Source of the DNA: Lentimicrobiaceae bacterium
GTDB lineage: Bacteria > Bacteroidota > Bacteroidia > Bacteroidales > UBA4417
DNA length: 40,141 nucleotides
Assembly: GCA_028697555.1 (NCBI GenBank)
Contig: JAQVEX010000022.1
Location: 1 to 40,141, forward strand
Direction of reading: 5' to 3'
In this document: positions 202-34,178 of the stretch, in pieces
Layout of the letters: every line of letters begins with the position of its first letter
Position numbering within the stretch: the stretch's first letter is position 1
Notes under the pieces: model-generated
Databases searched by the model: none
Told to the model about the DNA's origin: nothing
Seen by the model: only the letters and a program-made list of their open reading frames with translations
Position numbers and translations under genes: made by a program

Positions 202-260
202 AGCCAAAAGCTAATAGCCAAGAGCTAAAAGCCAAAAGCCAAGAGCCAAAAGCCAATAGG
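202..260. repeat. Heptanucleotide repeat tract A
   Basis: Eight consecutive 7-base units of the type AGCCAAA / AGCTAAT / AGCCAAG run without a break in register, followed by AGG. The bases before it (about 165-200) hold a second, less regular series of the type AACCCGA and a TTCGGG palindrome. The tract stops about 20 bases before the U32 stop codon. Open frames through it on either strand are repeat translations, not genes. Confidence 0.85.
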
Positions 261-280
261 ATTCGAACAACAATAATTTG

Positions 281-1528
281 TTATTGATTAAGAACTATCT
301 TGTAAACGTCATCATTCCTACGAAGTATCTCAGATGTGCTAATTGTAAACGTTTCGCCTTTATTGATTTTATCGGCTTCTATATCATCGCTATTCAGCAT
401 TTTTTCAACATGTAGCTCGTAAACGCCGGTTGTTGGACCAATAACAATCAGGTCTTCGTTGACAGATACATCATAGGTATCGACTTTTATTTGTGCTACC
501 ATAATTTTATTGTAAAAATTGATGACCTTGCCGACATACACTTTTTTATGAGTAGCCGATGAGCCGTGCCTTTCAGTCCATTCTCCCAATTTAGCTCCCA
601 TGTAATATCCTTCCCAAAAACCTCTGTTGTACACCGACGAGAGTTTTTTGTTCAGGTCTTCTACCAACTCTTCGTTGAAATTATCGTTAAAATACGCTTC
701 AACGGCTCTATTGTAACATTGTGTAACTGTTTTTACATATTCCGGCGACCTGCCTCTGCCTTCAATTTTAAGAACAGTAACTCCCGCATCTAAAATTTTA
801 TCTAAAATCTGTACGGTTTTCAAATCTTTTGGCGACATAATGTACTCGTTGTCAATCTCCAATTCTACTTCCGAATCTTTGTCGTAAACGCGATATGCTC
901 GGCGACAATCTTGCAAACAAGCTCCTCTGTTAGCCGACAAGTTGTGATTATGCAAGCTCAAATAACATTTCCCGCTGACAGCCATACACAAGGCTCCGTG
1001 GACAAAAACCTCAATTTGAACCAATTCGCCTTTCGGACCTCGTATGTCTTGTTCTTTTATTTGAGTTGTTATTTCTTTTACTTGTTTTATAGATAATTCG
1101 CGTGCCAAAACCATAACATCAGCGAATTGTGAGTAAAACTTAACAGCTTCGATGTTAGTAATGTTGCACTGCGTAGAAATGTGGATTTCAACGCCTATTT
1201 GGCGTGCGTACTGTATAACCGATATATCCGATGCTATTATTGCACTGATTCCGCTTTGCTTTGCGGTTTCTATTATGCTTTTTATTTCTTCAAGCTCGTT
1301 GTCATAAACAATGGTATTCAGAGTTAAATAGCTTTTAACTCCGTTTTGCCTGCATATATCGGCTATATTGCTAATGTCGTCAAGCGAAAAATTTGCACTC
1401 GAACGCGAACGCATATTTAATTTTCCTGCTCCAAAGTATATCGAGCCGGCTCCTCCTTGTATGGCAGCCATCAGCGATTCGTATGAGCCTGCCGGCGACA
1501 TTATTTCTATTTTACCTTTGTAACTCAT
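281..1528 (-). CDS. Peptidase U32 family protein (probable tRNA U34 hydroxylation enzyme)
   Basis: This 415-residue protein belongs to the U32 'collagenase-like' family. The family signature is visible as EVFVHGALCMAVSGKCY (about residues 173-189), and four cysteines (181, 188, 204, 208) are spaced as in members that carry an iron-sulfur cluster. Family members of this size (TrhP/YegQ) are known to make 5-hydroxyuridine at the tRNA wobble position; longer ones (RlhA) modify 23S rRNA. A true protease role is therefore less likely. The start overlaps the stop of the upstream protease gene by four bases (1525-1528), so the two are almost certainly co-transcribed and translationally coupled. Assignment to the family is firm; choice between tRNA and other targets rests mainly on length. 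Confidence 0.88.
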   Translation of the reverse strand: MSYKGKIEIMSPAGSYESLMAAIQGGAGSIYFGAGKLNMRSRSSANFSLDDISNIADICRQNGVKSYLTLNTIVYDNELEEIKSIIETAKQSGISAIIASDISVIQYARQIGVEIHISTQCNITNIEAVKFYSQFADVMVLARELSIKQVKEITTQIKEQDIRGPKGELVQIEVFVHGALCMAVSGKCYLSLHNHNLSANRGACLQDCRRAYRVYDKDSEVELEIDNEYIMSPKDLKTVQILDKILDAGVTVLKIEGRGRSPEYVKTVTQCYNRAVEAYFNDNFNEELVEDLNKKLSSVYNRGFWEGYYMGAKLGEWTERHGSSATHKKVYVGKVINFYNKIMVAQIKVDTYDVSVNEDLIVIGPTTGVYELHVEKMLNSDDIEADKINKGETFTISTSEILRRNDDVYKIVLNQ

Positions 1529-3129
1529 TTCTGTAAAGTAGCATTGCTGTTTAAAATTTGTAACGCTTTTAAATAAGTGCTATCCGTTTTTAAATATATG
1601 GGATAAAAACCTTCATCGTCGTACACATTGCGAGCAATGTAGGCTTTCAGCAAATCGGATATTTTTTGTTTTGAAAAAGCAATCTCTTTTTCGGTAGCTT
1701 TTATTTTGTCTTTTGATGCAAACGCAATAAAACTGCCGAATATATCATTATTTATGTGGAATTTCGCATTAAAATCGTCGAAATCGGAGTAGTTATTTAA
1801 AGCTTTTCTATTCTTGTCGGTGTATTCAAAAGCAAATTTAAATATAGTTCCTTTTCGTAGGCACTTAGCATAAAACGTATAATCACCCACGGTTTCGGCA
1901 GGAACAATTATATCAGGTGTAATACCTCCGCCACCGTACAAAACTCGTCCCATAGGAGTTATGTATTTAACTGTATCGGTGTTATTTTTTGTAGTATCGG
2001 AAGTCTCTTTATCGGCATATCTTTCCATCAATTCCATGTAGTAGTCTTCACTGCCTTTGTCGTAAGGCTTTTGTATGCATCTGCCGGTAGGCGTGTAGTA
2101 TTTGGAAGTAGTAAGTCGCATCGCCGAACCGTCTTTAAAACTTATTTGCTCTTGTACCAAGCCTTTACCAAACGTGCGTCTGCCGATAATAAAGCCTCTA
2201 TCGTTATCTTGAATTGCTCCTGCAACAATTTCCGATGCCGAAGCTGAGCCCTCGTCGGTAAGGACAACCACAGGCAAATCGTCCCACAGTCCTACACTTG
2301 TGGAATACGCTTCTTTTTGCGAACGATGCAGTCCTTTGGTATAAACAATCAATTTATCGGCAGGTAAAAACTCGTCCGAAACAGCTATCGCTTCTTCCAA
2401 GTATCCGCCTGCATTTCCACGTAAGTCTAAAATAAGCTTGTATATCCCTTCGGATTTGAAATCACTTAGAGCAAATTTGAGTTCATCATCGGTGGTAGCA
2501 CTGAACTTGCTTATTTTTATATATCCTGTGCTATCATTGACTTTAAACGCAACATCTATGCTCCAAGTAGGAATAACATCTCGCGTAATATCGAAATACA
2601 ATATTCCGGAAACTCCCAATCGGACTATGCCTACATTTACTACGGTATTTTTAGGTCCTTTAAGGAGTTTCATAGCCTTTTCGTTGTCGATACCAACCGA
2701 AGCTATATTTTCTTTATCAACCTCTACTATTCTGTCGCCGGCTAACAAACCTGATTTCTCCGAAGGACCGCCTACAATTGTACTTATTACCATAACAGTG
2801 TCGTGTTCTATTCGAAACTGAATTCCAATTCCTTCAAAGTTTCCCAATAGTTCTGCATTTGTGTTGTTAAAATCTTCGGCGGGTATGTAAATGGAATGCG
2901 GATCAAGGCTGGAAAGCATGCCATTTATGGCTTTGGTGTGTAAGTCGTCTGTGTCGACACTATCAACATAGTTCTCGTTAATATATTTTATCAAACTTTT
3001 AATATCAATCTTCTCGTCTTTGTTTTGGAATGCAAAGCTGTACTTGTCGCTTATTCTGAAACCAAGTAAGATGCCCAAAAGAAGAACAAAAAGCATCAAT
3101 AAAGGTGTTATGTTTTTTTTATTAGTCAT
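1525..3129 (-). CDS. S41 family C-terminal processing protease (CtpA/Prc type)
   Basis: A 534-residue periplasmic protease. After a short basic N-terminus there is one hydrophobic signal or anchor segment (about residues 6-24), then a PDZ domain beginning at FEGIGIQF (about 98), then the S41 core. The serine of SASASEIVAG (about residue 299) and the lysine of RRTFGKGLVQ (about 322) form the expected Ser/Lys dyad. Such enzymes trim C-termini of exported proteins. I start it at the ATG at 3129, not at the in-frame TTG at 3147, because that TTG is the last three bases of a -7 promoter box (3145-3152) and would lie upstream of the transcript. The 3' end overlaps the U32 gene by four bases. Confidence 0.93.
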   Translation of the reverse strand: MTNKKNITPLLMLFVLLLGILLGFRISDKYSFAFQNKDEKIDIKSLIKYINENYVDSVDTDDLHTKAINGMLSSLDPHSIYIPAEDFNNTNAELLGNFEGIGIQFRIEHDTVMVISTIVGGPSEKSGLLAGDRIVEVDKENIASVGIDNEKAMKLLKGPKNTVVNVGIVRLGVSGILYFDITRDVIPTWSIDVAFKVNDSTGYIKISKFSATTDDELKFALSDFKSEGIYKLILDLRGNAGGYLEEAIAVSDEFLPADKLIVYTKGLHRSQKEAYSTSVGLWDDLPVVVLTDEGSASASEIVAGAIQDNDRGFIIGRRTFGKGLVQEQISFKDGSAMRLTTSKYYTPTGRCIQKPYDKGSEDYYMELMERYADKETSDTTKNNTDTVKYITPMGRVLYGGGGITPDIIVPAETVGDYTFYAKCLRKGTIFKFAFEYTDKNRKALNNYSDFDDFNAKFHINNDIFGSFIAFASKDKIKATEKEIAFSKQKISDLLKAYIARNVYDDEGFYPIYLKTDSTYLKALQILNSNATLQK

Positions 3130-3144
3130 TTTTTTGCGTTTTTG

Positions 3145-3152
3145 CAAAAATA
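3145..3152 (-). promoter_or_regulatory. -7 box of the S41 protease gene
   Basis: Reads TATTTTTG on the minus strand, a full match to the Bacteroidota -7 consensus TAnnTTTG, 16 bases before the ATG. No clear -33 TTG at the usual distance. Confidence 0.55.
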
Positions 3153-3396
3153 CAAAGTTTGGTTAATTTTCAGGATTATTAGAAAATACAATATTTTTTC
3201 ATTGCAATCAGATAAACTTAAAAAAGGCGTCGCTTCGCGGTGAGTGGTGGTTGGTGGTCGGTGGTCGGTGGTCGGTGGTGAGTGATGAGTGTCGCAACTC
3301 GAAACTTACTGCACCACACCCATCACCCATCACTCATCACCCATCACTAAACTAATAGCAACTTTGTGATTAAAAATATTCATCGAACAGTTATGA

Positions 3397-3426
3397 TTGA
3401 TTATTTGTAATAAATAGCTATATTTG
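3397..3426 (+). promoter_or_regulatory. Promoter of the aldolase gene
   Basis: A TTG at 3397-3399, a 19-base spacer and TATATTTG at 3419-3426 match the Bacteroidota -33/-7 pattern. The predicted transcript starts about 30 bases before the ATG at 3463. Confidence 0.65.
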
Positions 3427-3462
3427 CACATAATATATTCATCTATTAAAACCTATAAAATT

Positions 3463-4545
3463 ATGCAACAAAACAAAAACTACACAATAGCTCCCGGAGT
3501 TGTTACGGGCGACGATATACAAAAGATTTTTAGTATCGCAAAAGAAAATAACTATGCATTTCCTGCAGTAAACGTTATCGGAACCGATTCGATAAATTCG
3601 GTATTGCAAGCTGCAAAGGAAGTTAATTCGCCGGTTATTATTCAATTTTCAAACGGCGGTGCACAGTTTTTTGCCGGAAAATTTTTACCCAACGATAAGC
3701 AACAAGCATCTATAGCCGGTGCTATTTCAGGCGCTAGTCATATTCACGCCATGGCTGAAATATATGGTGTTCCGGTTATTGTTCACACCGACCACGCTGC
3801 AAAAAAACTTCTTCCATGGATTGACGGTTTGTTAGATGCAGGTGAAAAATATTACAGCAAAGTTGGCAAACCTCTTTTCAGTAGCCACATGCTCGACCTT
3901 TCGGAAGAACCTTTGCACGAAAATATCGAAATTTGTAAAAGATACTTAGAACGCATGAGCAAAATAGGTATGACCCTCGAAATTGAACTCGGTATTACAG
4001 GCGGAGAAGAAGATGGTGTTGATAATACAGGCGTTGATAGTGCCAGATTATATACACAGCCCAAAGAAGTAGCTTATGCTTACGAAGAATTATCGAAGGT
4101 AAGTAATAGATTTACTATTGCGGCTTCATTCGGAAACGTACACGGCGTTTATAAACCCGGAAACGTTAAGCTAGAACCAATTATCTTAAAAAATTCGCAA
4201 GAATTTGTTAAACAAAAATTCAATATTTCGGAAAACAACCCTATAGACTTTGTATTCCACGGTGGTAGCGGTTCCGACCCCAAAGATATTGAAGAAGCAA
4301 TTTCGTACGGAGTTATAAAAATGAACATCGATACCGACACGCAATGGGCTACTTGGAAAGGTGTTTTAGATTTTTACAACGAAAAACAGGGCTACTTGCA
4401 AGGTCAAATAGGTAATCCGGAAGGCGACGATAAACCTAACAAAAAATACTACGACCCACGTACATGGCTACACAAAGGACAATTATCGATGATTGAAAGA
4501 CTAAAAGTAGCTTTCAGTGATTTGAATTGTTTGAATAGAATGTAA
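3463..4545 (+). CDS. fbaA: Class II fructose-bisphosphate aldolase
   Basis: A 360-residue zinc-dependent aldolase that splits fructose 1,6-bisphosphate into glyceraldehyde 3-phosphate and dihydroxyacetone phosphate, or joins them in gluconeogenesis. HTDHA (residues 108-112) supplies the catalytic Asp and a zinc-binding His. GGEEDGVDN and the late VFHGGSGS hold further zinc and phosphate ligands. Length matches the class IIA (E. coli FbaA-like) form. The ATG at 3463 is chosen because the upstream in-frame TTG at 3424 is inside the -7 promoter box. The gene stands alone. Triose-phosphate isomerase, the next enzyme in the pathway, is encoded at 12127. Confidence 0.96.
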   Translation: MQQNKNYTIAPGVVTGDDIQKIFSIAKENNYAFPAVNVIGTDSINSVLQAAKEVNSPVIIQFSNGGAQFFAGKFLPNDKQQASIAGAISGASHIHAMAEIYGVPVIVHTDHAAKKLLPWIDGLLDAGEKYYSKVGKPLFSSHMLDLSEEPLHENIEICKRYLERMSKIGMTLEIELGITGGEEDGVDNTGVDSARLYTQPKEVAYAYEELSKVSNRFTIAASFGNVHGVYKPGNVKLEPIILKNSQEFVKQKFNISENNPIDFVFHGGSGSDPKDIEEAISYGVIKMNIDTDTQWATWKGVLDFYNEKQGYLQGQIGNPEGDDKPNKKYYDPRTWLHKGQLSMIERLKVAFSDLNCLNRM

Positions 4546-4548
4546 GAA

Positions 4549-4762
4549 AGTGGTTGGTGGTGAGTGGTCGGTGGGTTAGTTTCGAGTTCCGAGTTTCGAG
4601 TTCTGAGTAGTTCGACATTTTAGGTCGCTGAGCTTTCAGAAACGACGAAAATGTAAGGATGTAGGAAGGCTTTTAGTTATGAGTTTCTAGTATCCAAACT
4701 ACTGATTCTGAGTTAAAGACTCCTAACTCAGAACTCCCGACTCAGAACTCAGAACTATACAA
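4549..4762. repeat. Heptanucleotide tract C between convergent genes
   Basis: Three different 7-base series are present: AGTGGTT/GGTGGTG/AGTGGTC from 4549; TTTCGAG/TTCCGAG/TTTCGAG/TTCTGAG up to about 4608; and AACTCAG/AACTCCC/GACTCAG/AACTCAG at 4725-4752. A perfect 9-bp hairpin, TTCTGAGTT (4706-4714) with AACTCAGAA (4725-4733), may end transcription from both sides, but no T-run follows it. A palindromic element sits in the middle (see 4615-4654). Confidence 0.75.
4615..4654. repeat. Palindromic element, GCTGAG core, copy 2
   Basis: ACATTTT (4615-4621) pairs with AAAATGT (4648-4654), GTCG (4624-4627) with CGAC (4643-4646), and CTGA (4628-4631) with TCAG (4636-4639). GGTCGCTGAG is shared with the element at 34041-34092. 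Confidence 0.65.
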
Positions 4763-8578: not shown

Positions 8579-8658
8579 TTGCCGTTAGCCATTAGCTGTT
8601 AGCCTTTGGCTAATGAATATACCCAGCCAAGAGCCAAGAGCTAACGGCTAAAAGCTAG
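8579..8658. repeat. Heptanucleotide tract D, inverted arms, between ahcY and cdaA
   Basis: Left arm: TTGCCGT, TAGCCAT, TAGCTGT, TAGCCTT, TGGCTAA (8579-8613). Right arm: AGCCAAG, AGCCAAG, AGCTAAC, GGCTAAA, AGCTAG (8625-8658). The arms are imperfectly complementary and could act as a bidirectional terminator for the two convergent genes. The cdaA stop codon (8655-8657) is made of repeat sequence. Confidence 0.8.
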
Positions 8659-9440
8659 TTGCGAATCATCTTTTCGGTAAGCATCGATTTCAATCCCGAA
8701 GCCTTAATGTTGTGGAAAATTTTACCGTCGTAGAAAAATGATATAAAGCCTGTTTGCTCCGAAACTACAACAGAGAAAGCATCTGTTTTTTCGGTTATTC
8801 CCAAAGCAGACCTATGTCGTAATCCTAACTCTTGCGGAATATCGGTACTGCTCGATACCGGTAAAATACATCTAGCGGCAACTATTTGGTCTTTATCAAT
8901 TATAACTGCACCGTCGTGCAATGGATTGTTTTTAAAGAATATGCTTTCTATTAATTCGGTAGAAGCAATGGCTTCTAACTTTGTGCCTGTTTCTATATAC
9001 TCTTCAAGCCCGTTTTTGTCGCAAATAACTATTAAGGCTCCGGTAAGCGAATTTGAAAGCTTGTTACAAGCCTGAACAATAATATCAATAGTTTGGGTAG
9101 ATCTTTCGGTATTGCTCATTCTTCCCAAAAAAGATTTGAAATATTTTTTAGATATAATACCTCTTGACCCCAATGTTAAAAGGAATTTCCTGATTTCGGG
9201 CTGAAAAACCACTATAAGAGCAAGTAATCCGGCTGACACAAATGCTCCAAACAAAGAGCTTAGCATATCCATGCCCAACATCTTAACAACTTGCCAAATA
9301 ACAAAAATTAAAAATACGCCTATAATAATGTTTATTGCAACAGTACCTCGCAGTAGCCTATAAATTGAAAACAACAAAAGAGTTACAAGCAGTATATCTA
9401 AAGCATCAATAAATGTAAATTTAATAAATAGTAATCCCAT
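8655..9440 (-). CDS. cdaA: Diadenylate cyclase (c-di-AMP synthase, CdaA type)
   Basis: A 261-residue inner-membrane enzyme that condenses two ATP into the second messenger cyclic di-AMP. About three membrane helices occupy residues 10-80. The DAC (DisA_N) domain follows, with the two motifs that define it: DGA (176-178, in NPLHDGAVIID) and RHR (208-210, in LGLRHRSALGI). It follows folP by 42 bases and is probably co-transcribed from the folP promoter. No CdaR-like regulator is present here. Its last bases run into repeat tract D, which supplies the stop codon. Confidence 0.95.
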   Translation of the reverse strand: MGLLFIKFTFIDALDILLVTLLLFSIYRLLRGTVAINIIIGVFLIFVIWQVVKMLGMDMLSSLFGAFVSAGLLALIVVFQPEIRKFLLTLGSRGIISKKYFKSFLGRMSNTERSTQTIDIIVQACNKLSNSLTGALIVICDKNGLEEYIETGTKLEAIASTELIESIFFKNNPLHDGAVIIDKDQIVAARCILPVSSSTDIPQELGLRHRSALGITEKTDAFSVVVSEQTGFISFFYDGKIFHNIKASGLKSMLTEKMIRN

Positions 9441-13734: not shown

Positions 13735-13756
13735 GCGTTTGTTTAACATTCTGCGT

Positions 13757-16700
13757 ATGAAAAAAATCATAGCCGTTTCTTTATTCTTTTTATTTGCACT
13801 GAAATTTAATTTGTTCGCTCAGGAGCAAATTAAGTTCAGCAATGATACTACTATGTTTTTAAGCGAACTTCAAGCTTATATGACGCAAGTCAGCAAAACG
13901 CAAGAAAAAGAAACACGTCAGGTTTTTAAAGATTTTGAATACGCTTGGATGTCGGAAATGATTCCTAAAAATATAAAAGCCTTAGTTTATCAATATTGTT
14001 TGAGCTTTGATGAGTACAAATTGTATCCTTATCCGTATTTCGTCAAATATCTGAACATTATTCAAATGTTTGCGCATCAAAATCAACCCGAAAACGACCA
14101 AATTTTCTTTCATAAAGGCGTCAACTTTTACTTAAACAACGAAAACAGAAATATAAATCTTTTAAACTATCTAACTCAGATAGAAACCTTTGTACAGTAC
14201 AAATCGCTACAGCGGACAAATACCGAAGAGTGGAAAATAAAAAACTACACTTATAGGTTCGGTTTCGACTCTATTCCGTGTATAATCTTTCCCGAAACCG
14301 ACCTTTCTTGCGTTGTGCGAAACGACAGCTCCAACATATACAAGACTTCGGGCGTTTATTACCCTCTATCGCTGCAATGGAAAGGAAAAGGCGGGAAACT
14401 AAATTGGGAAAGGTTTTTTTACCATCCCGATACGGTTTATGCAAATTTGAAAACGTACGAAATAAATCTGAAATTGACCGAATTTACCGCCGAAAACGTT
14501 GAATATTGCCACAAAGGATATTTCAAAAAGAGCAAACTCCTTGGTAAAATTACCGACAAAGCCGTTGTTGATGCCGATAAAATCATTTCAACGTATCCAC
14601 GCTTTTACATGTACGACAACCAGAAAGTGTTCATCAAAATATTTCCAAACATCGAATATAGCGGCGGGTTCAGCGTTGAAGGAAACAGAGTTATCGGAAA
14701 TTCAATAAATAACGATTTGGCTAAAGTTGTTTTTTTTAGAAACAATGAAGAGTTTATAAACATACAAGCTGATCATTTTTTAATTTATCCAAGCAGATTT
14801 ATTACCGACAAAGGAAGATTAAACATAAGCATAGCCGAAGATTCCATTTATCACCCCGAAGTAATTACACGCTACGATTACGTGCAAAACTTATTAGTCC
14901 TTCAGCGGAACGATATCGGCTTAGGATTGGCTCCGTTTTTTGACACTTATCACAAATTGGATATATTTTCCGATGCAATATATTGGCATCGTAATCAAAA
15001 CCGTATTTCATTCGAGAGCATTAGAGGAATAAGAAGCGAAAGCATAGTCGGCTTTTTTTCAACCGATTTTTTTTCGCAAAAAGAATACGAAGCTCTTCAA
15101 GGAATTGACGATGTTAATCCCGTAGAATTAGTCTCCTTGTACTCTCGAAAAATACACTCACGAAACTTTACCTTAGAAGATTTTACCGAGTGGGCTAAAA
15201 AGCCGAAAGAACAAATAAACCGACAACTTATAATACTTGCCAATAAAGGTTTTATCGATTATGATTTGCAAAATAGAACCGTCCAAGTAAAACCTCGTTT
15301 GATTGAATTTTTGGCTGCACAAAAAGGTGCTAAAGACAGCGACATTATCAGTTTTACGTCGGTTTTGGGCGATAAAACCAATGCCTTCTTAAACTTAAAT
15401 AACTTTAACTTGGATATTGAAGGCGTTTCCGATATTATGCTGAGCGATTTGCAATACGTTTACGTTGTTCCTCGCAATAAAAGCATTACCGTTCAGAAAA
15501 ACAGAAATTTCATCTTTTCCGGTCGAGTTCATGCCGGCTTATTCGATATAGAAACCGAACAGGCATCTTTCGATTACGACAAGTTTATGATAAATATGCC
15601 TGAAATAACCAAAATATCAATGATAGCTTTGGAATGGGAGCCCGATGTTTTCGGAAATAGAAATTTTGTGCCTGTAAAAAATCATTTGGTCGATTTGAAT
15701 GCCGACCTGTATATCGACAATCCCGACAGTAAATCCGGCAGAAAAATGTTCCAGAATTATCCTTTGCTTGTAAGTAAAGATACATCGTATGTGTTTTTCG
15801 ATCGTAGCGATATTGTCGGCGGTGCATACAAAAAAGATAATTTTTATTTTCAGGTTTATCCTTTCGAAATGGATAGTATAAACACAATCCCAACTCCCGA
15901 TGTTATGTTTAAAGGACGTTTGGTTTCGGCTGATATTTTTCCTCCTATAGAAGAAGACTTGAAGATTCAAAAAGACTACTCTCTCGGATTTTTGCACGTT
16001 ATTGAAGAGCCAGGATTGCCCGTTTATAAAGGCATAGGTACATATTCCGACACGCTATTGCTCAGCAATAAAGGTCTTATAGGTAAAGGGCAGTTAAATT
16101 ATTTAACGTCGAATAACAAATCCAACGACTTTTTGTTCACACCAAAGCAGGTGGTAGCTAATGTTGAAAATTACAATTTGGCGAAATATGTTGCCGATGT
16201 CGAGTTTCCCGACGCAGTATCAAAAAGTGCAAGACTTAGGTGGGATACCGAAAACAACATGATGGAAGTCAGCAGCAACCAGGAAGGCGGTTTCAGCATG
16301 TTCGACAATAACGCAAAATTAGACGGTATTCTTAACGTAAGTCCGCAAGGTTTATTCGGAAAAGGCAAATTCTCATTCGAGCACGCCGAAGTTGTTTCAA
16401 ATAAATATACCTTCAAAGCCAATAGCTTTGTCTCTGATACAGCCGATTTTAAACTTTTATCGCCCGACGATAAATCTGATGCTCTTAGAGTTCACATATT
16501 TAAAACAAACATAGACTTCGATTCTCGAATAGGACACTTTATCGCTACAGGTAAAGGTGCGTTGATGGAATTTCCAAAAATTAATTACAATTGCGTTGTA
16601 AATGAATTTGATTGGCTGATGGACGAAAATAAACTCTCGTTGATAAATAAACCTCATATGTCCGAACAAGAGTACTACAACCTAACAAAACAGCAACTTA

Positions 16701-18259
16701 TTAATTTCGACCCGGGCAACGAAATATACTTCTCCACCTCACACAAACGTGGCAAGCTGCAGTTTTACGCACTTAATGCTCTGTACGATTTGAACAGAAA
16801 CAACTTGCAAGTATCGGACGTAAGAATTATTAAAGTCGCCGATGCAGCTATTTTCCCGCATCAAGCTAAAATGAATATAGATAGTACCGGAAAAATTGAA
16901 ACGCTTGTTAATGCCGAAATACTAACCGATATAGTCAATCAGAGATATTATTTTTATAATGCAAATGTTGATATAAGCTCACGAAGCTATTACAAAGCTC
17001 AAGCCTTTTACGACTACAAGCCCGCAAACGGAGATTCGTATACTCTCAAATTAGATTCGATTAAGCCCGTTAAAAACGTTTCTACCGCATACGCACACCT
17101 TGAAGAAACGGACAACTTTAGTTTAAATTATAAATTCAATTACTTGGGTAACATCACCTTGCAGGCAAATTCCGACAGCTTGACGTTAGATGGTGCTTTT
17201 TCAATAGTTAACTCTTGTTACGACAACAAGGAAACAAATTGGGTAAAAATAAATCAAAAGTTGCATCCGCAGAATGTAAAAATTGTTCTTCCTTCCGATC
17301 CCAAAAACGTTAATAATCAAAAGTTACGCACAAGTATTTACTACTCGCTAACAGAGCATAAACCTATGTTCGGATTTTTAGAACCTACCGAAAACGTCAG
17401 CGACCCCGATATTTTTTCGGCTAAAGGGTTTTTGAATTACAACTTTTACACTTCCGAATATCAAATTGCCGATACATCGGTATTAAATAATGGCGAACAG
17501 CCCGGAAACATTGCAAAACTCAATACCATAAGATGCTTTTTGAACGGAGATGGCGAAATTAATTTAACAAGTGAGTTGGGACAATTCCGTCTGAGAAACA
17601 TCGGTAATATCAAATTCTTTACAGCCAACGATTCGACAATAATAAACACGGCTATGGTATTTGATTTTCATTTCCCCGACGAAGCTCTTAAAGTTCTTAG
17701 CGATGATATAAATAACAACGTGTTGCAACACATTGACGCCGGCAATCCCAACTATATCAGAACCCTAAGAACCCTAATGGGAAATAAGGCTGCAAGCAAA
17801 TACTTGGAAGAAATTTCCATATACGGAAAGGCACAAAAATTTCCTGCCGAATTAAATCATTCAATTGTATTGTACGATGTAAATTTGGAATATATCCCCG
17901 ATAGCAGAACATTCGTATGCTGGGGTCCTATGGGTGTGAATAATATCGGAAATAATACGGTTATGAAATACGTTCCCGGCTACATTGAAATGCAAAAACG
18001 CCGCTCAGGCGACGTTATTACTATTTACTTTATGCTCGAAAACAACAGATGGTACTATTTCAACTACGCCAACAACATTTTGCAAGCAATTTCCGATAAT
18101 TCCAATTTCAACGATGAATTAGTTGACCTTAAAGCCAAAGAACGGAGAGTTGCTAAAAGAGGCGAAGCTACATATCAGTTTATTATCGGTACAGCCGATA
18201 AAAAAGCGACTTTCTTACGCAAAATGCGACAAATGCAACGTTCCTTAAACGACGAATAA
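13757..18259 (+). CDS. Very large exported beta-rich protein of unknown function
   Basis: I do not recognise a family. The 1500-residue product begins with a clear signal peptide (MKKIIAVSLFFLFALKF..., cleavage near LFAQ), which is why I start at the ATG at 13757 and not at the TTG 18 bases earlier. No lipobox cysteine and no later membrane helix are evident. Most of it is alternating polar/hydrophobic sequence suggesting many beta strands. Similar strands recur near residues 760-785 (LLLSNKGLIGKGQLNYL) and 853-880 (LNVSPQGLFGKGKFSFE), so repeated units are likely. Around residues 464-530 a helical stretch (FTEWAKKPKEQINRQL, then GFIDYD) resembles a winged helix. A periplasmic or surface role is likely. 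It starts 22 bases after prmA and ends 3 bases before a glycosyltransferase. Confidence 0.8.
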   Translation: MKKIIAVSLFFLFALKFNLFAQEQIKFSNDTTMFLSELQAYMTQVSKTQEKETRQVFKDFEYAWMSEMIPKNIKALVYQYCLSFDEYKLYPYPYFVKYLNIIQMFAHQNQPENDQIFFHKGVNFYLNNENRNINLLNYLTQIETFVQYKSLQRTNTEEWKIKNYTYRFGFDSIPCIIFPETDLSCVVRNDSSNIYKTSGVYYPLSLQWKGKGGKLNWERFFYHPDTVYANLKTYEINLKLTEFTAENVEYCHKGYFKKSKLLGKITDKAVVDADKIISTYPRFYMYDNQKVFIKIFPNIEYSGGFSVEGNRVIGNSINNDLAKVVFFRNNEEFINIQADHFLIYPSRFITDKGRLNISIAEDSIYHPEVITRYDYVQNLLVLQRNDIGLGLAPFFDTYHKLDIFSDAIYWHRNQNRISFESIRGIRSESIVGFFSTDFFSQKEYEALQGIDDVNPVELVSLYSRKIHSRNFTLEDFTEWAKKPKEQINRQLIILANKGFIDYDLQNRTVQVKPRLIEFLAAQKGAKDSDIISFTSVLGDKTNAFLNLNNFNLDIEGVSDIMLSDLQYVYVVPRNKSITVQKNRNFIFSGRVHAGLFDIETEQASFDYDKFMINMPEITKISMIALEWEPDVFGNRNFVPVKNHLVDLNADLYIDNPDSKSGRKMFQNYPLLVSKDTSYVFFDRSDIVGGAYKKDNFYFQVYPFEMDSINTIPTPDVMFKGRLVSADIFPPIEEDLKIQKDYSLGFLHVIEEPGLPVYKGIGTYSDTLLLSNKGLIGKGQLNYLTSNNKSNDFLFTPKQVVANVENYNLAKYVADVEFPDAVSKSARLRWDTENNMMEVSSNQEGGFSMFDNNAKLDGILNVSPQGLFGKGKFSFEHAEVVSNKYTFKANSFVSDTADFKLLSPDDKSDALRVHIFKTNIDFDSRIGHFIATGKGALMEFPKINYNCVVNEFDWLMDENKLSLINKPHMSEQEYYNLTKQQLINFDPGNEIYFSTSHKRGKLQFYALNALYDLNRNNLQVSDVRIIKVADAAIFPHQAKMNIDSTGKIETLVNAEILTDIVNQRYYFYNANVDISSRSYYKAQAFYDYKPANGDSYTLKLDSIKPVKNVSTAYAHLEETDNFSLNYKFNYLGNITLQANSDSLTLDGAFSIVNSCYDNKETNWVKINQKLHPQNVKIVLPSDPKNVNNQKLRTSIYYSLTEHKPMFGFLEPTENVSDPDIFSAKGFLNYNFYTSEYQIADTSVLNNGEQPGNIAKLNTIRCFLNGDGEINLTSELGQFRLRNIGNIKFFTANDSTIINTAMVFDFHFPDEALKVLSDDINNNVLQHIDAGNPNYIRTLRTLMGNKAASKYLEEISIYGKAQKFPAELNHSIVLYDVNLEYIPDSRTFVCWGPMGVNNIGNNTVMKYVPGYIEMQKRRSGDVITIYFMLENNRWYYFNYANNILQAISDNSNFNDELVDLKAKERRVAKRGEATYQFIIGTADKKATFLRKMRQMQRSLNDE

Positions 18260-19444: not shown

Positions 19445-19576
19445 TATGGTTATGCCCTTTAGTTCATAGCCCTTAGCCCCCGAAGTCTCGGGGCTGTTAG
19501 CTTTTAGCCATTGGCTATTGATAAGTGTGTCGATATTTCGGGATAACTCGCAACACGCAACACGTAACACGTAACA

Positions 19577-19631
19577 GCCAACGGCTAACAGCCAAGAGCC
19601 AAAAGCTAACAACTTTTTCACATCAAAATAA
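19577..19631 (+). repeat. 55-bp direct repeat, left copy
   Basis: Aligned without gaps to 21142-21196 there are 4 mismatches; the first 26 and last 20 bases are identical. The last 20 bases (19612-19631) correspond to the final codons (YFDVKK) and stop-codon base of the phosphatase gene, here read through without a stop. Confidence 0.85.
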
Positions 19632-21039: not shown

Positions 21040-21174
21040 AGTCGGAAGTCGGAAGACAGAAGTCAGAAGTTCCGAGTTATGAGTCGGGAGTATTGAGTTG
21101 AAAAACTCGTAACTCAGAACTCAGAACTCAGAACTAACTCTGCCAACGGCTAACAGCCAAGAGCCAATAGCCAA
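21040..21174. repeat. Heptanucleotide tract F between convergent genes
   Basis: Units change along the tract but keep a 7-base step: AGTCGGA, AGTCGGA, AGACAGA, AGTCAGA, AGTTCCG, AGTTATG, AGTCGGG; then three AACTCAG; then AACGGCT, AACAGCC, AAGAGCC, AATAGCC. The AGTC-type units on the left and AACTCAG units on the right are roughly complementary. The tract abuts the stop codon of the phosphatase gene. Confidence 0.8.
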
Positions 21175-24917: not shown

Positions 24918-25234
24918 TGGTTTTGTTATTTTATTGTTAATATGTTACAAAAAAACCATTTTAATATTACACAACTGTTAAGGAAAAAATAAGTATTTGT
25001 TAAGGGGGTGAGTGGTGAATGGTGGTGGGTGATGGGTGAAGGGTGAGTGGTGGATGGTGAATAGTGAGTGGGTGGTGGGTGATGGGTGATGGGTGAAGGG
25101 TGAGTGGTGGATGGTGAGTGGTGAATGGTGGTCGGGAGTTAGGAGTTAGGAGTTTAGTTCCCGAAACTTCTGAACAACTCTCACTAACCACCAACCACTG
25201 ACCACTGACCACCAACCACCAACCACTAACCACC

Positions 25235-25269
25235 CTGCGTAAAAAAAATGATACATTTTTTTTACGCAG
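25235..25269. repeat. Perfect 16-bp inverted repeat with 3-base loop
   Basis: CTGCGT plus eight A and TG (25235-25250) pairs perfectly with CA plus eight T and ACGCAG (25254-25269) around ATA. The T-run is inside the stem, so it is not a standard terminator. It lies 80 bases upstream of the sigma factor -7 box. It could be an operator, a cruciform or a miniature mobile element. Confidence 0.85.
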
Positions 25270-28316: not shown

Positions 28317-28402
28317 TAGCCGTTAGCTGTTAGCTGTTAGCCGTTAGCCGTTGGCTAAACCTAGCTAACAGCCAAGAGCCAAAAGCTAATGGCTAAAAGC
28401 CA
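28317..28402. repeat. Heptanucleotide tract H, inverted arms, between convergent genes
   Basis: Left arm: TAGCCGT, TAGCTGT, TAGCTGT, TAGCCGT, TAGCCGT, TGGCTAA without a break (28317-28358). Right arm: AGCTAAC, AGCCAAG, AGCCAAA, AGCTAAT, GGCTAAA, AGCCA. The arms are imperfectly complementary. Closely similar to tract D. It may terminate dusB and the DAHP synthase gene. Confidence 0.85.
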
Positions 28403-29748: not shown

Positions 29749-29773
29749 CCTTCATAATTAACAAATAAGATAT

Positions 29774-29833: not shown

Positions 29834-29863
29834 TTTCTTTTATAATTAATAAAACAAATTTAC

Positions 29864-31165
29864 ATGAGTATGAAATCAAAAAAATTACAACTAACAGAAG
29901 ACTGGACGGCTAATTTATTGGGTTTTATTATCATTTTTATTGCCGTATTTATGCTTTCTCCTCATTTTGGAAACATGAGCATAAAATGGCCCACTTTTAA
30001 ATGGGACAGTGCCGAAACACTTACCGGAAAAGTTTTGTCATTGAACAATTTGGGCAAAATAGGAATTTTGTTTATCGTGTTTTACATATTCACAGCCCTT
30101 GCAGGTATATTTACCAACAAACCTTTAAAAAACATGTTGAAAATTTATCCTGCAGTTTTCGTATTAACAATATTGGCTTGCATAATTTCGGGCAATCACT
30201 ACATGGATACATGGGGATTAGAAACTGTTATCTTCTGTCTTCTCTTCGGGTTGATAATAAGCAACTTTTTCAAAATGCCACAATGGGTAAAAGACGGTCT
30301 GACCTCCGAATTGTTTGTTAAAATAGGGTTGGTTCTTTTGGGTGCCGGAATTTTATTCAAATCGATGATGGAAGCCGGAGTTTACGGCTTAGTACAAGCT
30401 ATTGTGGTTATTTTGGTTGTATGGAATTTTTGTTTCTGGCTAAGTAAAAAAATGGGTGTTGACAGAGACCTTGGTGTAATGCTATCGAGTGCGGTTTCAA
30501 TATGCGGTGTTTCGGCTGCTATTGCTACCTCCGGTGCTATCAAAGGCGATAAAGTTAAGCTGTCATACGTAATTTCGTTGGTACTTGTTGTGGCTGTGCC
30601 TATGATTATATTGCTGCCCTTAATAGCTCGATGGTTAGGCTTCTCGGAAGTATTGGCAGGAGCATGGTTTGGCGGAACTATCGATACCACCGGTGCTGTT
30701 GCCGCCAGTGGTGATTTCTATGGCGATATTGCCGAACAAGTTGCTATGATTGTTAAATCGTCGCAAAACGTACTGTTGGGTATCGCTGCTTTTGTTATCT
30801 CAATATATTGGTCTATTACAGGACAATCGGATCGCGAAGAAAAACCCACAGCAAGAGTTATTTGGGACAGATTCCCAAAATTTGTATTAGGATTTGTTGC
30901 CGCATCATTAATATTTTCGTTTATATTTTCCGGCGAAACAGTTGGCGCTACTAAAGGAGTCCTTAAATCGGCACAAAAATTATGGTTTGCATTGGCGTTT
31001 ACATCTATAGGTTTGGAAACAAATTTCAAACAACTTATAAGCAAAACCAACCGCAAAGCAACTTACACCTTCTTGATAGCCCAATTATTTAACATTTTCG
31101 TTACCCTACTGGTAGCTTGGTTACTATTTGAAGTAATGGGCGGTGGAGATTCGTTTCTTGAATAA
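29864..31165 (+). CDS. YeiH/UPF0324 family membrane protein (putative sulfate exporter family)
   Basis: A 433-residue inner-membrane protein with about ten hydrophobic helices. The family hallmark AWFGGTIDTTGAVAASG is present (about residues 266-282), as is LSSAVSICGVSAAIATSGAI (about 207-226). These paired motifs resemble the re-entrant loops of secondary transporters. The family is labelled 'putative sulfate exporter', but its substrate is not firmly shown. It is a single gene with its own promoter and a strong intrinsic terminator 23 bases behind the stop. It is divergent from the DAHP synthase gene. Confidence 0.88.
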   Translation: MSMKSKKLQLTEDWTANLLGFIIIFIAVFMLSPHFGNMSIKWPTFKWDSAETLTGKVLSLNNLGKIGILFIVFYIFTALAGIFTNKPLKNMLKIYPAVFVLTILACIISGNHYMDTWGLETVIFCLLFGLIISNFFKMPQWVKDGLTSELFVKIGLVLLGAGILFKSMMEAGVYGLVQAIVVILVVWNFCFWLSKKMGVDRDLGVMLSSAVSICGVSAAIATSGAIKGDKVKLSYVISLVLVVAVPMIILLPLIARWLGFSEVLAGAWFGGTIDTTGAVAASGDFYGDIAEQVAMIVKSSQNVLLGIAAFVISIYWSITGQSDREEKPTARVIWDRFPKFVLGFVAASLIFSFIFSGETVGATKGVLKSAQKLWFALAFTSIGLETNFKQLISKTNRKATYTFLIAQLFNIFVTLLVAWLLFEVMGGGDSFLE

Positions 31166-31188
31166 TAATTGACTATAACTATAAATTT

Positions 31189-31223
31189 AAAAAGGCTGAC
31201 CTTATACTTAAGTCAGCCTTTTT
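31189..31223 (+). terminator. Intrinsic terminator of the YeiH-type gene
   Basis: A perfect 12-bp stem, AAAAAGGCTGAC (31189-31200) with GTCAGCCTTTTT (31212-31223), closes an 11-base loop; the right arm ends in five T. It is the clearest standard terminator in the window. Confidence 0.9.
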
Positions 31224-31263
31224 GGGTTTTGGGGGGGTATTATCGTATGGTTTGCTGCTTTGA

Positions 31264-31309
31264 GCAAGAGTTGAGGCAAGAGTTAGGGCAAGAGTTAGGG
31301 CAAGAGTTG
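31264..31309. repeat. 12-bp tandem repeat (tract I)
   Basis: Unit GCAAGAGTTAGG: GCAAGAGTTGAG, GCAAGAGTTAGG, GCAAGAGTTAGG and a partial fourth. It differs from the other tracts in its 12-base step. The rest of the 31166-31463 gap holds the terminator, and the YjjG promoter box. Confidence 0.8.
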
Positions 31310-31430
31310 AAAAATAATACAAGATATTCGAAAGTGCTTGAAAAGCTGAGCAACACTTTGCTTTAAATTTATTCAAACTCAAAACTCATTTCCCCACACA
31401 AACCCTCCAAAACCATTCTCAACAATTTTA

Positions 31431-31438
31431 TAAATTTG
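31431..31438 (+). promoter_or_regulatory. -7 box of the YjjG-like gene
   Basis: TAAATTTG is a full match to TAnnTTTG, 25 bases before the ATG. No -33 TTG seen. Confidence 0.5.
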
Positions 31439-31463
31439 CCCTTCAAATTTGTTGAAAAGAAAT

Positions 31464-32171
31464 ATGAAAGAAACAAAATTATATAAGCACGTTTTTTTTG
31501 ATTTAGACCAAACCTTATGGGATTTTAAACGGATTTCGTTGGAAGTTAAAGAAGAATTGTTTTACAAATTCAACATCTCCATAATCAATAACGACATTGA
31601 TTATCAGAGATTTAAGGAAAAATACGAAGAAATAAATGCAGGGTTGTGGGAGATGTACAGAAACGACGAAATAGATAAATACACGCTTAATTTCAGAAGA
31701 TTTAACGACACAATTGCAGCTTTCAATATAGTTGACAAAGAGCTTGGTAAACAGATGGCAGATTATTTTGTACACGAAATCGGTAAAAAGACTTACTTTT
31801 TTGAAGGTGCCTTAGATTTGTTAGATTATTTGCAGAAAAAATACTCGCTACATGTTATAACCAACGGTTTTGAAGAAGTTATGCACGAAAGGTTTAAAAG
31901 AAACGATTTGTACAAACACTTTACAACCATAACTACTAGCGAAATGGCAAAGAGTATGAAACCTCATAAAGAAATATTCAGTTTCGCTCTATGTGCTGCC
32001 TCAGCCAATGCAAACGAAAGCATAATGATAGGCGACAATTACGACGTGGATATTATGGGAGCTCACAATGCAGGCATTGACACAATATGGGTCTACACGG
32101 AAGAAAATATTGCTGAAAATTGTGCAACCTATACGGTGAAAAATTTACTGGAAATAAAAACGATTTTATAA
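31464..32171 (+). CDS. HAD-superfamily nucleotidase (YjjG-like)
   Basis: A 235-residue cytoplasmic hydrolase. HAD motif I is FFDLDQTLWDF (about residues 11-21) with the nucleophile Asp; motif II is HVITNGFE; motif III is the Lys of SMKPHKEIF; motif IV is IGDNYDVDIMGA. A helical cap follows motif I. The family removes phosphate from (mainly non-canonical) pyrimidine nucleotides in E. coli, and the exact substrate here is not certain. I use the ATG at 31464 in place of a TTG five codons upstream, in line with the -7 box. Its stop is only two bases from the stop of the convergent lipoprotein gene. Confidence 0.88.
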   Translation: MKETKLYKHVFFDLDQTLWDFKRISLEVKEELFYKFNISIINNDIDYQRFKEKYEEINAGLWEMYRNDEIDKYTLNFRRFNDTIAAFNIVDKELGKQMADYFVHEIGKKTYFFEGALDLLDYLQKKYSLHVITNGFEEVMHERFKRNDLYKHFTTITTSEMAKSMKPHKEIFSFALCAASANANESIMIGDNYDVDIMGAHNAGIDTIWVYTEENIAENCATYTVKNLLEIKTIL

Positions 32172-32173
32172 AC

Positions 32174-32674
32174 TTATCTTGCAAGCACGTAGTAAGGACT
32201 CTTCACAACATTGCTTTGGTTGTGTGCCCTATCGGTAATAAAAATTTCAAAAGCAACCGTATCGCTGATAAGTACAGGCGTTATAAAGTACAATTCAAGC
32301 AACATAGTTATTTCGCCTTTTATGTTTTTATTGTCGCCTTCGGGTGTCAGATAAGGAAGTCGAGCATTTAAAGTAAAAGTAGAATCAGGTGGCAAAAGCT
32401 CTACATCGTTGCCATTCTTGAGCTGAAATAGTTTGATAAAAAAATCGTACGTCAAGTTATTTGTATCCGTTGATAAAAAACCCAAATCGCCGTCGCCATC
32501 GGTGTATGAAATGGTAACATAACCAAGCGAATCGGTATCGTTATGAGCTTTTACAACGGAAAAGCCAACAAATTCAATGTATGGAATCTCCGAATACTGA
32601 ATTTTATTTACGCAAGAATTGAAAAATATTGCAACTATTCCTAAAAAAAAGACTACTTTTATTGAGTGTTTCAT
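32174..32674 (-). CDS. Lipoprotein of unknown function
   Basis: A 166-residue protein with a lipoprotein signal (residues 1-20, FFNSC, lipidated Cys21). I start at the ATG at 32674, because the open frame upstream to 32710 has no signal-peptide character and crosses the -7 box at 32691-32698. The mature part contains ISYTDGDGDLGFLSTDTNNL, an acidic, possibly calcium-binding DGDGDLG loop that I have seen in other Bacteroidota lipoproteins, within a beta-rich domain. No further function can be read. It is convergent with the YjjG-like gene (2-base gap) and divergent from the LuxE-like gene (38-base gap). Confidence 0.78.
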   Translation of the reverse strand: MKHSIKVVFFLGIVAIFFNSCVNKIQYSEIPYIEFVGFSVVKAHNDTDSLGYVTISYTDGDGDLGFLSTDTNNLTYDFFIKLFQLKNGNDVELLPPDSTFTLNARLPYLTPEGDNKNIKGEITMLLELYFITPVLISDTVAFEIFITDRAHNQSNVVKSPYYVLAR

Positions 32675-32690
32675 TTCATTAATTTTAAAA

Positions 32691-32698
32691 CAAAGATA
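32691..32698 (-). promoter_or_regulatory. -7 box of the lipoprotein gene
   Basis: TATCTTTG on the minus strand matches TAnnTTTG; TACTTTTG (32708-32701) a few bases upstream also matches, so the exact box is open. Both lie in the 38-base divergent gap. Confidence 0.45.
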
Positions 32699-32712
32699 AC
32701 AAAAGTACAAAC

Positions 32713-33702
32713 ATGGAAATACATTCGCTGAAAAACGAGATTTTTAAAATTAATTCCAATGAAGAATTTACAAATCTCGCATTGCAGATTTTTAAATATC
32801 AGTACGCAAACAATAATATTTACAAGATGTTTGTCGATAATTTAGGTGTGAATATTGACAGTATTTCCAACATTGAACAAATACCGTTTTTGCCTATTCA
32901 ATTTTTTAAGACTCACAGAATAACCTGCGGCGATGCTCCCGAAGAAGCCGTTTTTATTAGTAGCGGAACCACTCAGCAACAGCGAAGCAAGCATTATATA
33001 TTAGATTTAAACCTGTACGAAAAAAGTTTTACCAAAGGTTTTGAATATTTTTTCGGCAATATCTCCGATTACATCATATTCGGACTGCTACCTTCGTACT
33101 TGGAACAAGGTAATTCGTCTTTAGTTTACATGGTTGAAAAACTAATGATAAAAACCAAAACCAATTATGGCGGATTTTATCTAAACGATTTCGAGAAATT
33201 AAAATCTGATATTGAAAAAGTGCAAAATACTGATAAAAAGATAATGCTTTTCGGCGTTACTTACGCACTATTGGATATGGCTAATACTTGTCCTATAAAA
33301 ATTAAAAACGCAATAATTGTAGAAACCGGCGGCATGAAAGGTCGTAAGGAAGAAATAGACAGAGAAGAGCTGCACAAGGTTTTAAAAAAGAGTTTTGGTG
33401 TTGATAATATTTACTCGGAGTACGGCATGACCGAATTGCTATCGCAGGCGTGGTCGTTGAAAGATGGTGTTTTCAAAACTCCTCCATGGATGAAAGTCTT
33501 ACTAGCCGACACAAACGACCCACTCAACGTATCCACCGAAAACAAAAGAGGTGGAATTAACATAATTGATTTGGCAAATATAAACTCCTGCTCGTTTATA
33601 GCTACGCAAGATTTAGGCAAAATGCACCACTATAATTCTTTTGAAGTGTTAGGACGATTTGATAGCAGCGACGTTAGGGGATGTAGTCTTATGTACGTGT
33701 AA
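32713..33702 (+). CDS. LuxE-like acyl-protein synthetase / acyl-activating protein
   Basis: A 329-residue cytoplasmic protein of the adenylate-forming superfamily, LuxE branch. FISSGTTQQQRS (81-92) is the nucleotide-binding loop; NIIYSEYGMTELLSQAW-like sequence (YSEYGMTELLSQAW, about 235-248) is the second adenylation motif. LuxE proteins activate fatty acids with ATP for transfer, in light-emitting bacteria together with LuxC and LuxD; neither is present here. In Bacteroidota such lone genes are often tied to surface-glycan or lipid acylation, which is inference. The upstream neighbour is a divergent lipoprotein gene. The gene ends at repeat tract J. Confidence 0.85.
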   Translation: MEIHSLKNEIFKINSNEEFTNLALQIFKYQYANNNIYKMFVDNLGVNIDSISNIEQIPFLPIQFFKTHRITCGDAPEEAVFISSGTTQQQRSKHYILDLNLYEKSFTKGFEYFFGNISDYIIFGLLPSYLEQGNSSLVYMVEKLMIKTKTNYGGFYLNDFEKLKSDIEKVQNTDKKIMLFGVTYALLDMANTCPIKIKNAIIVETGGMKGRKEEIDREELHKVLKKSFGVDNIYSEYGMTELLSQAWSLKDGVFKTPPWMKVLLADTNDPLNVSTENKRGGINIIDLANINSCSFIATQDLGKMHHYNSFEVLGRFDSSDVRGCSLMYV

Positions 33703-34003
33703 TGGCGATTGGTAGTGGCTTGTCCCGAGAATTCGGGAGTGGTCGGTGAATGGTGATTGGGGTAGTTCTGAGTATTGAGTTGCGGGGTGCGGGTTACGGG
33801 TTGCGAGTTGCGGGTAAGTTTTGTCCCGAAGTTTCGGAAGAGTGTCTGCGATTTTGTTAAACTATTTTGCAATCAATAAACTTCGCTCTTTTCGTTTAGA
33901 TTATCTTTCACGGTAAGGAAAAACAATAGCCAAAAATTTTAGTTTAAAAAGGACGGCATACATTTCTTCTGAATGGAGTTCGAAATAAATCCTTAGTGAG
34001 AAC

Positions 34004-34029
34004 GGGGGCTTCGACGCCGCTCAGCCACC
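34004..34029. repeat. Palindromic element, copy 3 (reverse orientation)
   Basis: GGGGGCT (34004-34010) pairs, with one mismatch, with AGCCACC (34023-34029). On the minus strand it reads GGTGGCTGAGC ... GTCGAAGCC, i.e. the family core with changed outer bases on both arms. Confidence 0.55.
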
Positions 34030-34040
34030 GCACCCGCTAA

Positions 34041-34092
34041 CAATATTTTCGGTCGCTGAGTGCCGAAGGCGTATCGAAGCGCGAAAATATTG
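34041..34092. repeat. Palindromic element, copy 4
   Basis: CAATATTTTCG (34041-34051) and CGAAAATATTG (34082-34092) pair perfectly over 11 bases; CGCT (34054-34057) and AGCG (34078-34081) extend the stem, and GCC-GAA-GGC (34062-34070) forms an inner hairpin. It shares 24 identical bases with copy 1. Confidence 0.75.
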
Positions 34093-34113
34093 GAACTTCT
34101 AATTTCTGACTTT

Positions 34114-34137
34114 GGTTGCTGAGCTCGCCGAAGCACT
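34114..34137. repeat. Palindromic element, copy 5 (degenerate)
   Basis: GGTTGCTGAG (34114-34123) followed by GCCGAAGCA keeps the family core with weaker arm pairing. Confidence 0.45.
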
Positions 34138-34178
34138 AATTTCTAACTTTATTTGCCAACAGCTAATAGCCAATAACC

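Follow-up and report, generated by a model that had tools for sequence, protein, structure and literature searches.

Intergenic arrays of 7-bp units occur in the genome of a Lentimicrobiaceae bacterium (GenBank assembly GCA_028697555.1), where they were noticed in contig 22 (JAQVEX010000022.1, positions 1 to 40,141; this whole stretch of 40,141 nucleotides is hereafter called the window). The initial annotation of the window had missed that these arrays are arranged as mirror images, in a set order and with a dyad at fixed phase, and that their arms avoid perfect stems; we describe all of these features here. Our tentative reading, to which we give a probability of about 0.4, is that the tracts are mostly the arms of dyad-symmetric elements that would have grown by slippage in 7-base steps on a hairpin-prone centre, with perfect stems being removed.

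The genome comprises 2,325,906 bases in 88 contigs and is 97.9% complete. Sample 1 covered 440 kb of it, namely the window and 20 further stretches (L046-L065), and a second sample of 20 stretches (L206-L225) was drawn once the unit families were already fixed; pooled, the two amount to about 808 kb. Open reading frames (ORFs) were assigned by a simple length rule rather than with a gene finder, gap statistics of sample 1 refer to 192 gaps of at least 40 bp, and dinucleotide shuffles served as the null model for lag tracts.

Paired 7-bp arrays in mirror-image order

Tandem Repeats Finder returned a period of 7 at each of the nine places listed in the initial annotation, and the printed sequence is consistent with this. 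Within the window, identity at lag 7 was 0.39 in the gaps, whereas lags other than multiples of 7 gave about 0.29 in the same gaps, and genes gave 0.26. The intergenic autocorrelation peak that the initial annotation had expected was also recovered from sample 1, with a lag-7 identity of 0.397 in the gaps and harmonics up to lag 35, versus an ORF value of 0.285 that is slightly inflated by 12 kb of masked N. Lag-7 tracts covered 8,439 bases of the gaps versus 320 after shuffling (26 times), while lags 5, 6, 8, 9, and 11 yielded 309-701 bases versus 223-300 (1.0-2.6 times). Likewise, a lag-7 tract was present in 89 of the 192 gaps (9.8 in shuffles), and the other lags gave tracts in 8-17 gaps (6.8-9.6 in shuffles). 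ORFs held 2,159 tract bases out of 388,791 (783 when shuffled), and 16 of the 17 ORF tracts of at least 40 bp sit in ORFs of at most 513 bp. These results confirm that the period-7 tracts are real and genome-wide, and that ORFs are nearly free of them.

The units had been described as unrelated, a view that we do not retain. From a mixture model fitted to the tracts (6 or 7 clusters) we arrived at five family patterns, which in the GT-rich reading are A (RGTGRNN), B (GAGTYNN), C (TTRGCYN), D (CGNGTTR), and E (CAATKAN). Clustering of the 7-mers, as had been proposed, thus resolves the tracts into about five families, and the supposedly different units are mostly readings of these families on either strand (e.g., GGTGGTC with ACCACCA, TAGCCGT with AGCCAAA). 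The units have conserved cores and fixed variable positions, and the families are used in both orientations. In what follows, L denotes the GT-rich reading of a unit and R its reverse complement; family E is not itself GT-rich, and its L form was assigned from the families that accompany it.

The layout of an element is a 7-mer array, a short centre, and then an array in reverse-complement form. For order counts, unit tokens within 200 bp were grouped, and all tokens were taken in, including overlapping neighbours (>14 nt). Both forms were present in 100 of 159 groups of the two samples, and junctions in which the L arm comes first (LR) outnumbered the opposite order (RL) by 101 to 2. Sample 1 contained 59 LR, 57 LL, 34 RR, and 0 RL junctions, and the second sample contained 42, 37, 43, and 2, respectively. 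Of the two RL cases, one falls in between a family C element (L211) and its near-identical copy, and the other joins arms that are about 140 bp apart. The strand skew of strict arms, scored without the unit families, gave 36 and 26 LR versus 0 and 0 RL junctions in the two samples. The same test in stretches of other genomes gave 10 LR and 0 RL; these ten cases are not all independent, as G003 and G013 apparently share an orthologous element, and the presence of tracts was mostly the reason for choosing the stretches of G046, G048, G033, G180, and the bacterial family f63. The GT-first order is therefore strong in this genome and suggestive in others.

The two arms of an element also tend to share a unit family. 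This was the case for 65 of the 101 LR junctions, with about 26 expected (sample 1: 38 of 59 versus 15.4, with a maximum of 31 in 10,000 shuffles; second sample: 27 of 42 versus 10.7). Moreover, centre length, taken between the innermost heptads, is 0 mod 7 in 14 of 21 family B elements (5 of 6 in the second sample alone) and 4 mod 7 in 17 of 27 family C elements (11 of 15 in the second sample alone). Pairing itself needs no fixed phase, because arms can pair across loops of any length. A fixed dyad phase means instead that the centre also changes by steps of 7, or that elements share their dyad by descent. The 4-nt tips of family C vary in sequence, and it is therefore the length of the centre that is conserved, not its sequence. 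Where several families occur together they are partly nested in mirrored order, with A outside B in 19 cases versus 1 in sample 1 and 4 versus 0 in the second sample; other family pairs are less regular, such as C outside A in 6 versus 1 and 5 versus 2.

The elements of the window, listed without strand assignment, are the following:

201..256, family C arm in AC-rich form (RGCYAAN x8), from Tandem Repeats Finder and family tokens; its partner arm was not seen
3239..3287, GT-rich family A left arm (RGTGRNN x7) of a divergent gap
3321..3348, family A right arm, AC-rich x4, folding onto 3239-3287
4549..4604, left arms, GT-rich: family A x4, then B x3
4716..4750, family B right arm x5, AACTCAG type
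8585..8612, family C left arm x4 (TTRGCYN)
8624..8651, family C right arm x4; the 11-nt centre equals 4 mod 7
19497..19517, family C left arm x3
19544..19609, right arms: four family D heptads that run in phase into five of family C (AACACGT to AACAGCC)
21074..21087, family B left arm x2; a longer AGTCGGA-type tract begins at 21040
21102..21174, right arms: family B x4, then C x4
25007..25156, left arms: ~18 heptads of family A, including an imperfect internal duplication of 57 bp, followed by B x3
25179..25234, family A right arm x8
28323..28357, family C left arm x5
28362..28396, family C right arm x5; 4-nt centre AACC
33738..33810, left arms: family A x3, then D x3
34160..34173, family C right arm x2; far end of the convergent gap in which 33738-33810 also lies

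Directly after the family A right arm that ends at 25234 lies a separate perfect A/T-rich hairpin (25235-25269; GCGTAAAAAAAATG / CATTTTTTTTACGC), which by its appearance looks like a two-way terminator. An Rfam scan of the window gave a tRNA (39690-39763) as the sole match above the gathering score, and no tract was matched.

Growth, complementarity and folding of the arms

Several features of the arrays point to slippage. Identical heptads are far more frequent among neighbours than between arms in family A (0.34 versus 0.095), B (0.32 versus 0.083), D (0.48 versus 0.18), and E (0.41 versus 0.21), but the values for family C are only 0.14 versus 0.10. In the first four families neighbour identity also exceeds shuffles of the order within arms, and the excess in C is weak. 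Unit changes tend to respect the phase: family switches that lie close together take the modal offset in 40 of 70 cases (27.3 expected; 0 of 20,000 simulations). The passage from AACACGT to AACAGCC units at 19545-19610 keeps the phase as well, as the initial annotation had reported. The identity of adjacent heptads in four of five families, together with the phase kept through unit changes, supports its suggestion of a 7-bp copying process that conserves length. The family A array at 25007-25133 contains an imperfect internal duplication of 57 bp, as identified by Tandem Repeats Finder. Growth at the centre or at the gene edge was considered and rejected, as neighbours are similarly alike in outer and inner arm halves (5.83 and 5.75 of 7 positions) and only the innermost step is lower (5.39).

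A restriction-site origin of the unit choice was also rejected: GGCC is missing from the commonest C units, but it is avoided across the whole sample. In about 0.8 Mb of this genome GGCC occurs 31 times versus 897 expected from base composition (0.03), and GATC (0.13) and CTAG (0.17) are likewise rare. This rarity is likely restriction-site avoidance; one match to a cytosine-C5 methylase family (L229) was found in the genome.

Complementarity was analyzed for 73 locus-family pairs having family A, B, C, or E on both arms, with stem lengths measured from the arms alone (centre excluded). At their variable positions, same-family arms match less within a locus (0.383) than between loci (0.450; 0 of 20,000 shuffles), and the reduction is seen in each sample separately (0 and 3 of 10,000 shuffles). 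Long perfect stems are correspondingly scarce: none of the 73 pairs has a longest perfect stem of at least 14 bp (8.6 expected), and only 6 reach at least 12 bp (23.6 expected). Ratios of within-locus pairs were 0.84 for Watson-Crick pairs, 1.06 for G.T, 1.12 for A.C, and 1.19 for other mismatches. An assembly filter seems an unlikely cause of this stem limit, because arms of 14-35 nt with short centres would fit within one read.

In sample 1, tracts occupy 27 of 35 convergent gaps, 42 of 107 tandem gaps, 14 of 39 divergent gaps, and 6 of 11 stretch edges; the earlier statement that every convergent gap longer than two bases holds a tract stands for the window (5 of 5) and not for this larger set. 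Median distances of the arms (149 of the 159 groups) were 14.5 and 12 nt to stop codons, versus 78 and 100 nt to starts. In tandem gaps, LR groups sat towards the upstream stop (19 of 19 and 21 of 26). Of the single arms, 22 of 28 L arms were closer to the left gene and 25 of 29 R arms closer to the right one. When convergent gaps are set aside, 21 of 29 single arms follow the gap edge, with an exception for L arms in tandem gaps of the plus strand (0 of 2). Single arms therefore track the gap edge more than the gene, and the order is largely independent of gene direction. A strand skew linked to transcription was rejected, as divergent gaps show the order as well, and so do most single arms at edges next to start codons.

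The frequency of tracts in convergent gaps and their proximity to stop codons are what would be expected of selected RNA hairpins at transcript 3' ends, serving as bidirectional terminators or stabilisers, and folding with RNA parameters agrees with this in part. Among 51 of the 59 LR groups of sample 1, 96% folded more stably than with dinucleotide-shuffled arms (mean z -3.7), which is the stable hairpin of an intrinsic terminator. However, real arm pairs have only a slight folding advantage, both over arms exchanged between loci (73% lower, mean z -0.47) and over pairs in which the heptad order of one arm was changed (59% lower, mean z -0.61), and both arms are found in divergent gaps as well. 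U-tracts fall below background: with a rule of 6 T in 9 positions they were detected at 6.1% of 197 outward flanks versus 20% of the gap background, and with a rule of five T at 6.1% versus 11.4%. Intrinsic terminators were rejected on this test. RNA pairing as a selected feature was rejected too, given that Watson-Crick pairs are depleted and G.U is not favoured over A.C. On balance, we consider the RNA hairpin explanation unlikely.

Origin of the elements

Overall, the tracts work like simple repeats grown by slippage on a palindromic scaffold. In the explanation that we prefer, slippage by 7 would gain and lose units, and both arms would arise jointly, either by copying across the centre or by the spread of whole hairpins; such a joint origin would explain the shared family and the fixed dyad. 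Elements with too perfect complementarity would be deleted or cleaved. This genome encodes an SbcC-type protein, which is a candidate for the removal of perfect stems. Elements may persist near stop codons because promoters and genes exclude them. As for the strand order, our preferred guess is that a GT-rich 3' end could self-prime copying through G.T pairing, which an AC-rich end could not.

Several observations weigh against this explanation. A looser test of the skew gave 54 LR and 4 RL junctions in this genome and 9 and 3 in others. The commonest dyad phase accounts for 4 of 10 family A and 3 of 6 family E elements, which is weak or too few. The mirrored family order requires an additional assumption, and pairs other than A and B replicate less well. 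Arm match is below the between-locus level at loci with short stems too, and the removal of long stems is therefore insufficient on its own; in addition, nearly perfect arm pairs, as expected after recent copy-back, were absent among the 73 locus-family pairs. In family C, heptads resemble their neighbours little more than they resemble heptads from other loci, yet the TT.GC core is kept at many loci, which slippage and drift do not explain. We derived the stem and dyad rules from the pooled samples and separated the samples afterwards, so the second sample is a replicate rather than a blind test of them. Finally, units that recur in another class of the phylum (see below) suggest recognition or spread. 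The GT-first order, and the family C core with its differing neighbours, are unaccounted for under every explanation considered here.

There is a further explanation, which we also regard as improbable, in which dispersed mobile palindromes akin to repetitive extragenic palindromic (REP) sequences and bacterial interspersed mosaic elements (BIMEs) insert into each other's centres, leaving nested families around one dyad, with slippage being secondary. REP/BIME elements, associated with RAYT transposases, are dispersed intergenic palindromes; the elements described here share this distribution and Y1_Tnp genes are present, but their arms are 7-bp arrays. The fixed dyad of B and C and the nesting of A outside B would fit such insertion, as would the element at L211 with a near-duplicate 116 bp away. 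CCCGAA-N-TTCGGG palindromes, 29 of which were counted in the samples of this genome (e.g., L212 at ~6430 and L225 at ~9360), lie inside element spans in 16 cases, although these spans make up 18.5 kb of ~808 kb (~2%). On the other hand, family C centres are alike in length and not in sequence, and same-family arms within an element are less alike than arms of different elements. Mobility through Y1_Tnp was rejected: the genome has three matches to this transposase family, and the 3.2-3.3 kb loci around them (L226, L227, L228) contain 0 tracts.

Less probable still are oriented recognition sites, at which a protein would bind 7-mers of the GT strand in the manner of Chi, an uptake sequence, or a polar motor, with a break or boundary between the arms. 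An order largely independent of gene direction, the conserved cores with fixed variable positions, and units common to different classes would suit such sites, but five families coexist in one genome and tracts are nearly absent from genes, unlike Chi and uptake sequences. Telomere-like addition, in which a reverse transcriptase would add GT-rich 7-mers to the 3' ends at breaks before the ends are joined head to head, is very improbable. The GT-rich strand does run almost always 3' into the centre, as in fused telomeres, but random joins would not give a fixed dyad phase, and this reverse transcriptase or telomerase-like route was rejected as RVT_1 was not matched in a genome that is 97.9% complete. 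Just as remote is an assembly artefact: some elements sit at contig starts (L047, L056, L058), but arms and centres are short enough for one read and the pattern recurs across many contigs and other genomes.

Related repeats and occurrence in other genomes

STRR (short tandemly repeated repetitive) sequences of cyanobacteria are 7-bp tandem units in intergenic DNA, as are the arrays described here; to our knowledge, the mirror-image order and dyad phase that set the latter apart are not known for STRR.

The closest published case is that of the GGGAATC heptamer repeats of Xanthomonas, which are described as mostly intergenic and near ORF edges, with 70 and 75 cases of two close repeats in convergent orientation (Rehm et al. 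2015, PMC4692102). Both the 7-bp intergenic tandem unit and the convergent pairing are found here, and in the same strand order. The Xanthomonas repeats consist of one G-run unit with quadruplex potential, whereas about five families, mostly without G-runs, are present here; judging from the sequence, a quadruplex-capable unit is not apparent, as the commonest B, C, and E units contain no GGG. The fixed dyad of two families and the lack of long perfect stems are further differences, and no test of arm complementarity or dyad phase was found in the available parts of the Xanthomonas paper.

TAACTGA arrays, some of them mixed with other heptamers, have been described from Beggiatoaceae, cyanobacteria, and five Bacteroidetes (MacGregor 2015, PMC4679880), so that the initial annotation was too categorical in knowing of no counterpart in Bacteroidota; no other counterpart in this phylum appeared among the literature matches listed. 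According to the available parts of that paper, the arrays are intergenic, indels between two Cyanothece strains are mostly 7-nt steps, and the repeats are direct and, in the main genome, mostly located shortly before start codons, with one indirect repeat. The elements described here are likewise intergenic and sometimes mixed, but they form inverted pairs and lie closer to stop codons than to starts. TAACTGA is not among our family consensuses (no direct count was made). Heptanucleotides are the commonest class of long simple sequence repeats in most genomes, and slippage has been proposed for them (Mrazek et al. 2007, as cited in PMC4679880); the heptanucleotide unit and the proposed slippage are shared with our elements, while that citation names no inverted, phase-locked pairs. 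Heptamer-derived satellites are also mentioned in PMC6749651, in the available parts of which inverted pairs were not found. A literature search with one unit string gave nothing on bacterial repeats among the matches listed.

Within the phylum, the habit is wider than the units. A four-heptad pattern of family C gave 254 and 256 matches in this genome (two strands, overlaps counted), none in 15 genomes of the same genus, and matches in five other genomes of the order (60 searched, this one included). Of 395 genomes of the phylum, a family A pattern was found in this one and 13 others, 11 of which belong to the bacterial family f63, from another class. In 20 stretches of f63 inspected by eye, tracts often begin at or near apparent stop codons, and the order is retained wherever both arms are visible. 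Genomes of the same genus carry different heptads. The closest genomes share about 50-59% identity in one protein, and one window protein has its closest named relatives mostly in Flavobacteriales and other metagenome-assembled genomes of Bacteroidota (~45-58% identity in matched segments), so that a little-known member of this phylum is likely. Among 37 loci of named relatives, three had one short lag-7 tract at a strict threshold and the remainder had none. Plasmid and phage collections searched with one tract gave no match.

Bacterial heptamer repeats have so far been described mainly unit by unit, with their pairing unexplained, at least in the parts of the literature available to us. Many units of one genome obey the same rules here, and the rules are therefore likely to belong to the process rather than to the sequence. 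The pattern probably results from copying in which seven bases are added per step, which, if true, would reveal how such repeats originate and stay limited. The order, the fixed dyad, and the missing long perfect stems provide three measurable predictions on the birth, copying, and pruning of simple repeats. A bolder generalization, which we hold to be doubtful, is a rule of bacterial DNA by which 7-base satellites grow from a hairpin centre in a single chemical direction, with the GT-rich arm 5' and the AC-rich arm 3', whatever the unit. Such a rule would hold in different Bacteroidota classes and in Xanthomonas, the cell would remove arm pairs that are too complementary, and the order would be the signature of a so far undescribed copying step, asymmetric between the strands, at the tips of hairpins.

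Other units and palindromes were encountered in the stretches of other genomes. In G033 (L120, ~8800-9300), heptad arms flank a GGTGGCTGAGCTTGTCGAAGCCAC-type palindrome, beside which there is an apparent 8-base series (CAACAAAT CAACAGAT). The same-genus genome G004 (L131, ~1.3-1.8 kb) carries another unit pair, a very long GGAAACA-type array followed by a CACTAAG array. In the window itself, an ORF of 1,506 aa (13739-18259) had no Pfam match at E 0.001, and at 31260-31310, in a tandem gap without a long 7-bp tract, a 12-bp tandem repeat (TTGAGGCAAGAG) is present in 4.3 copies.

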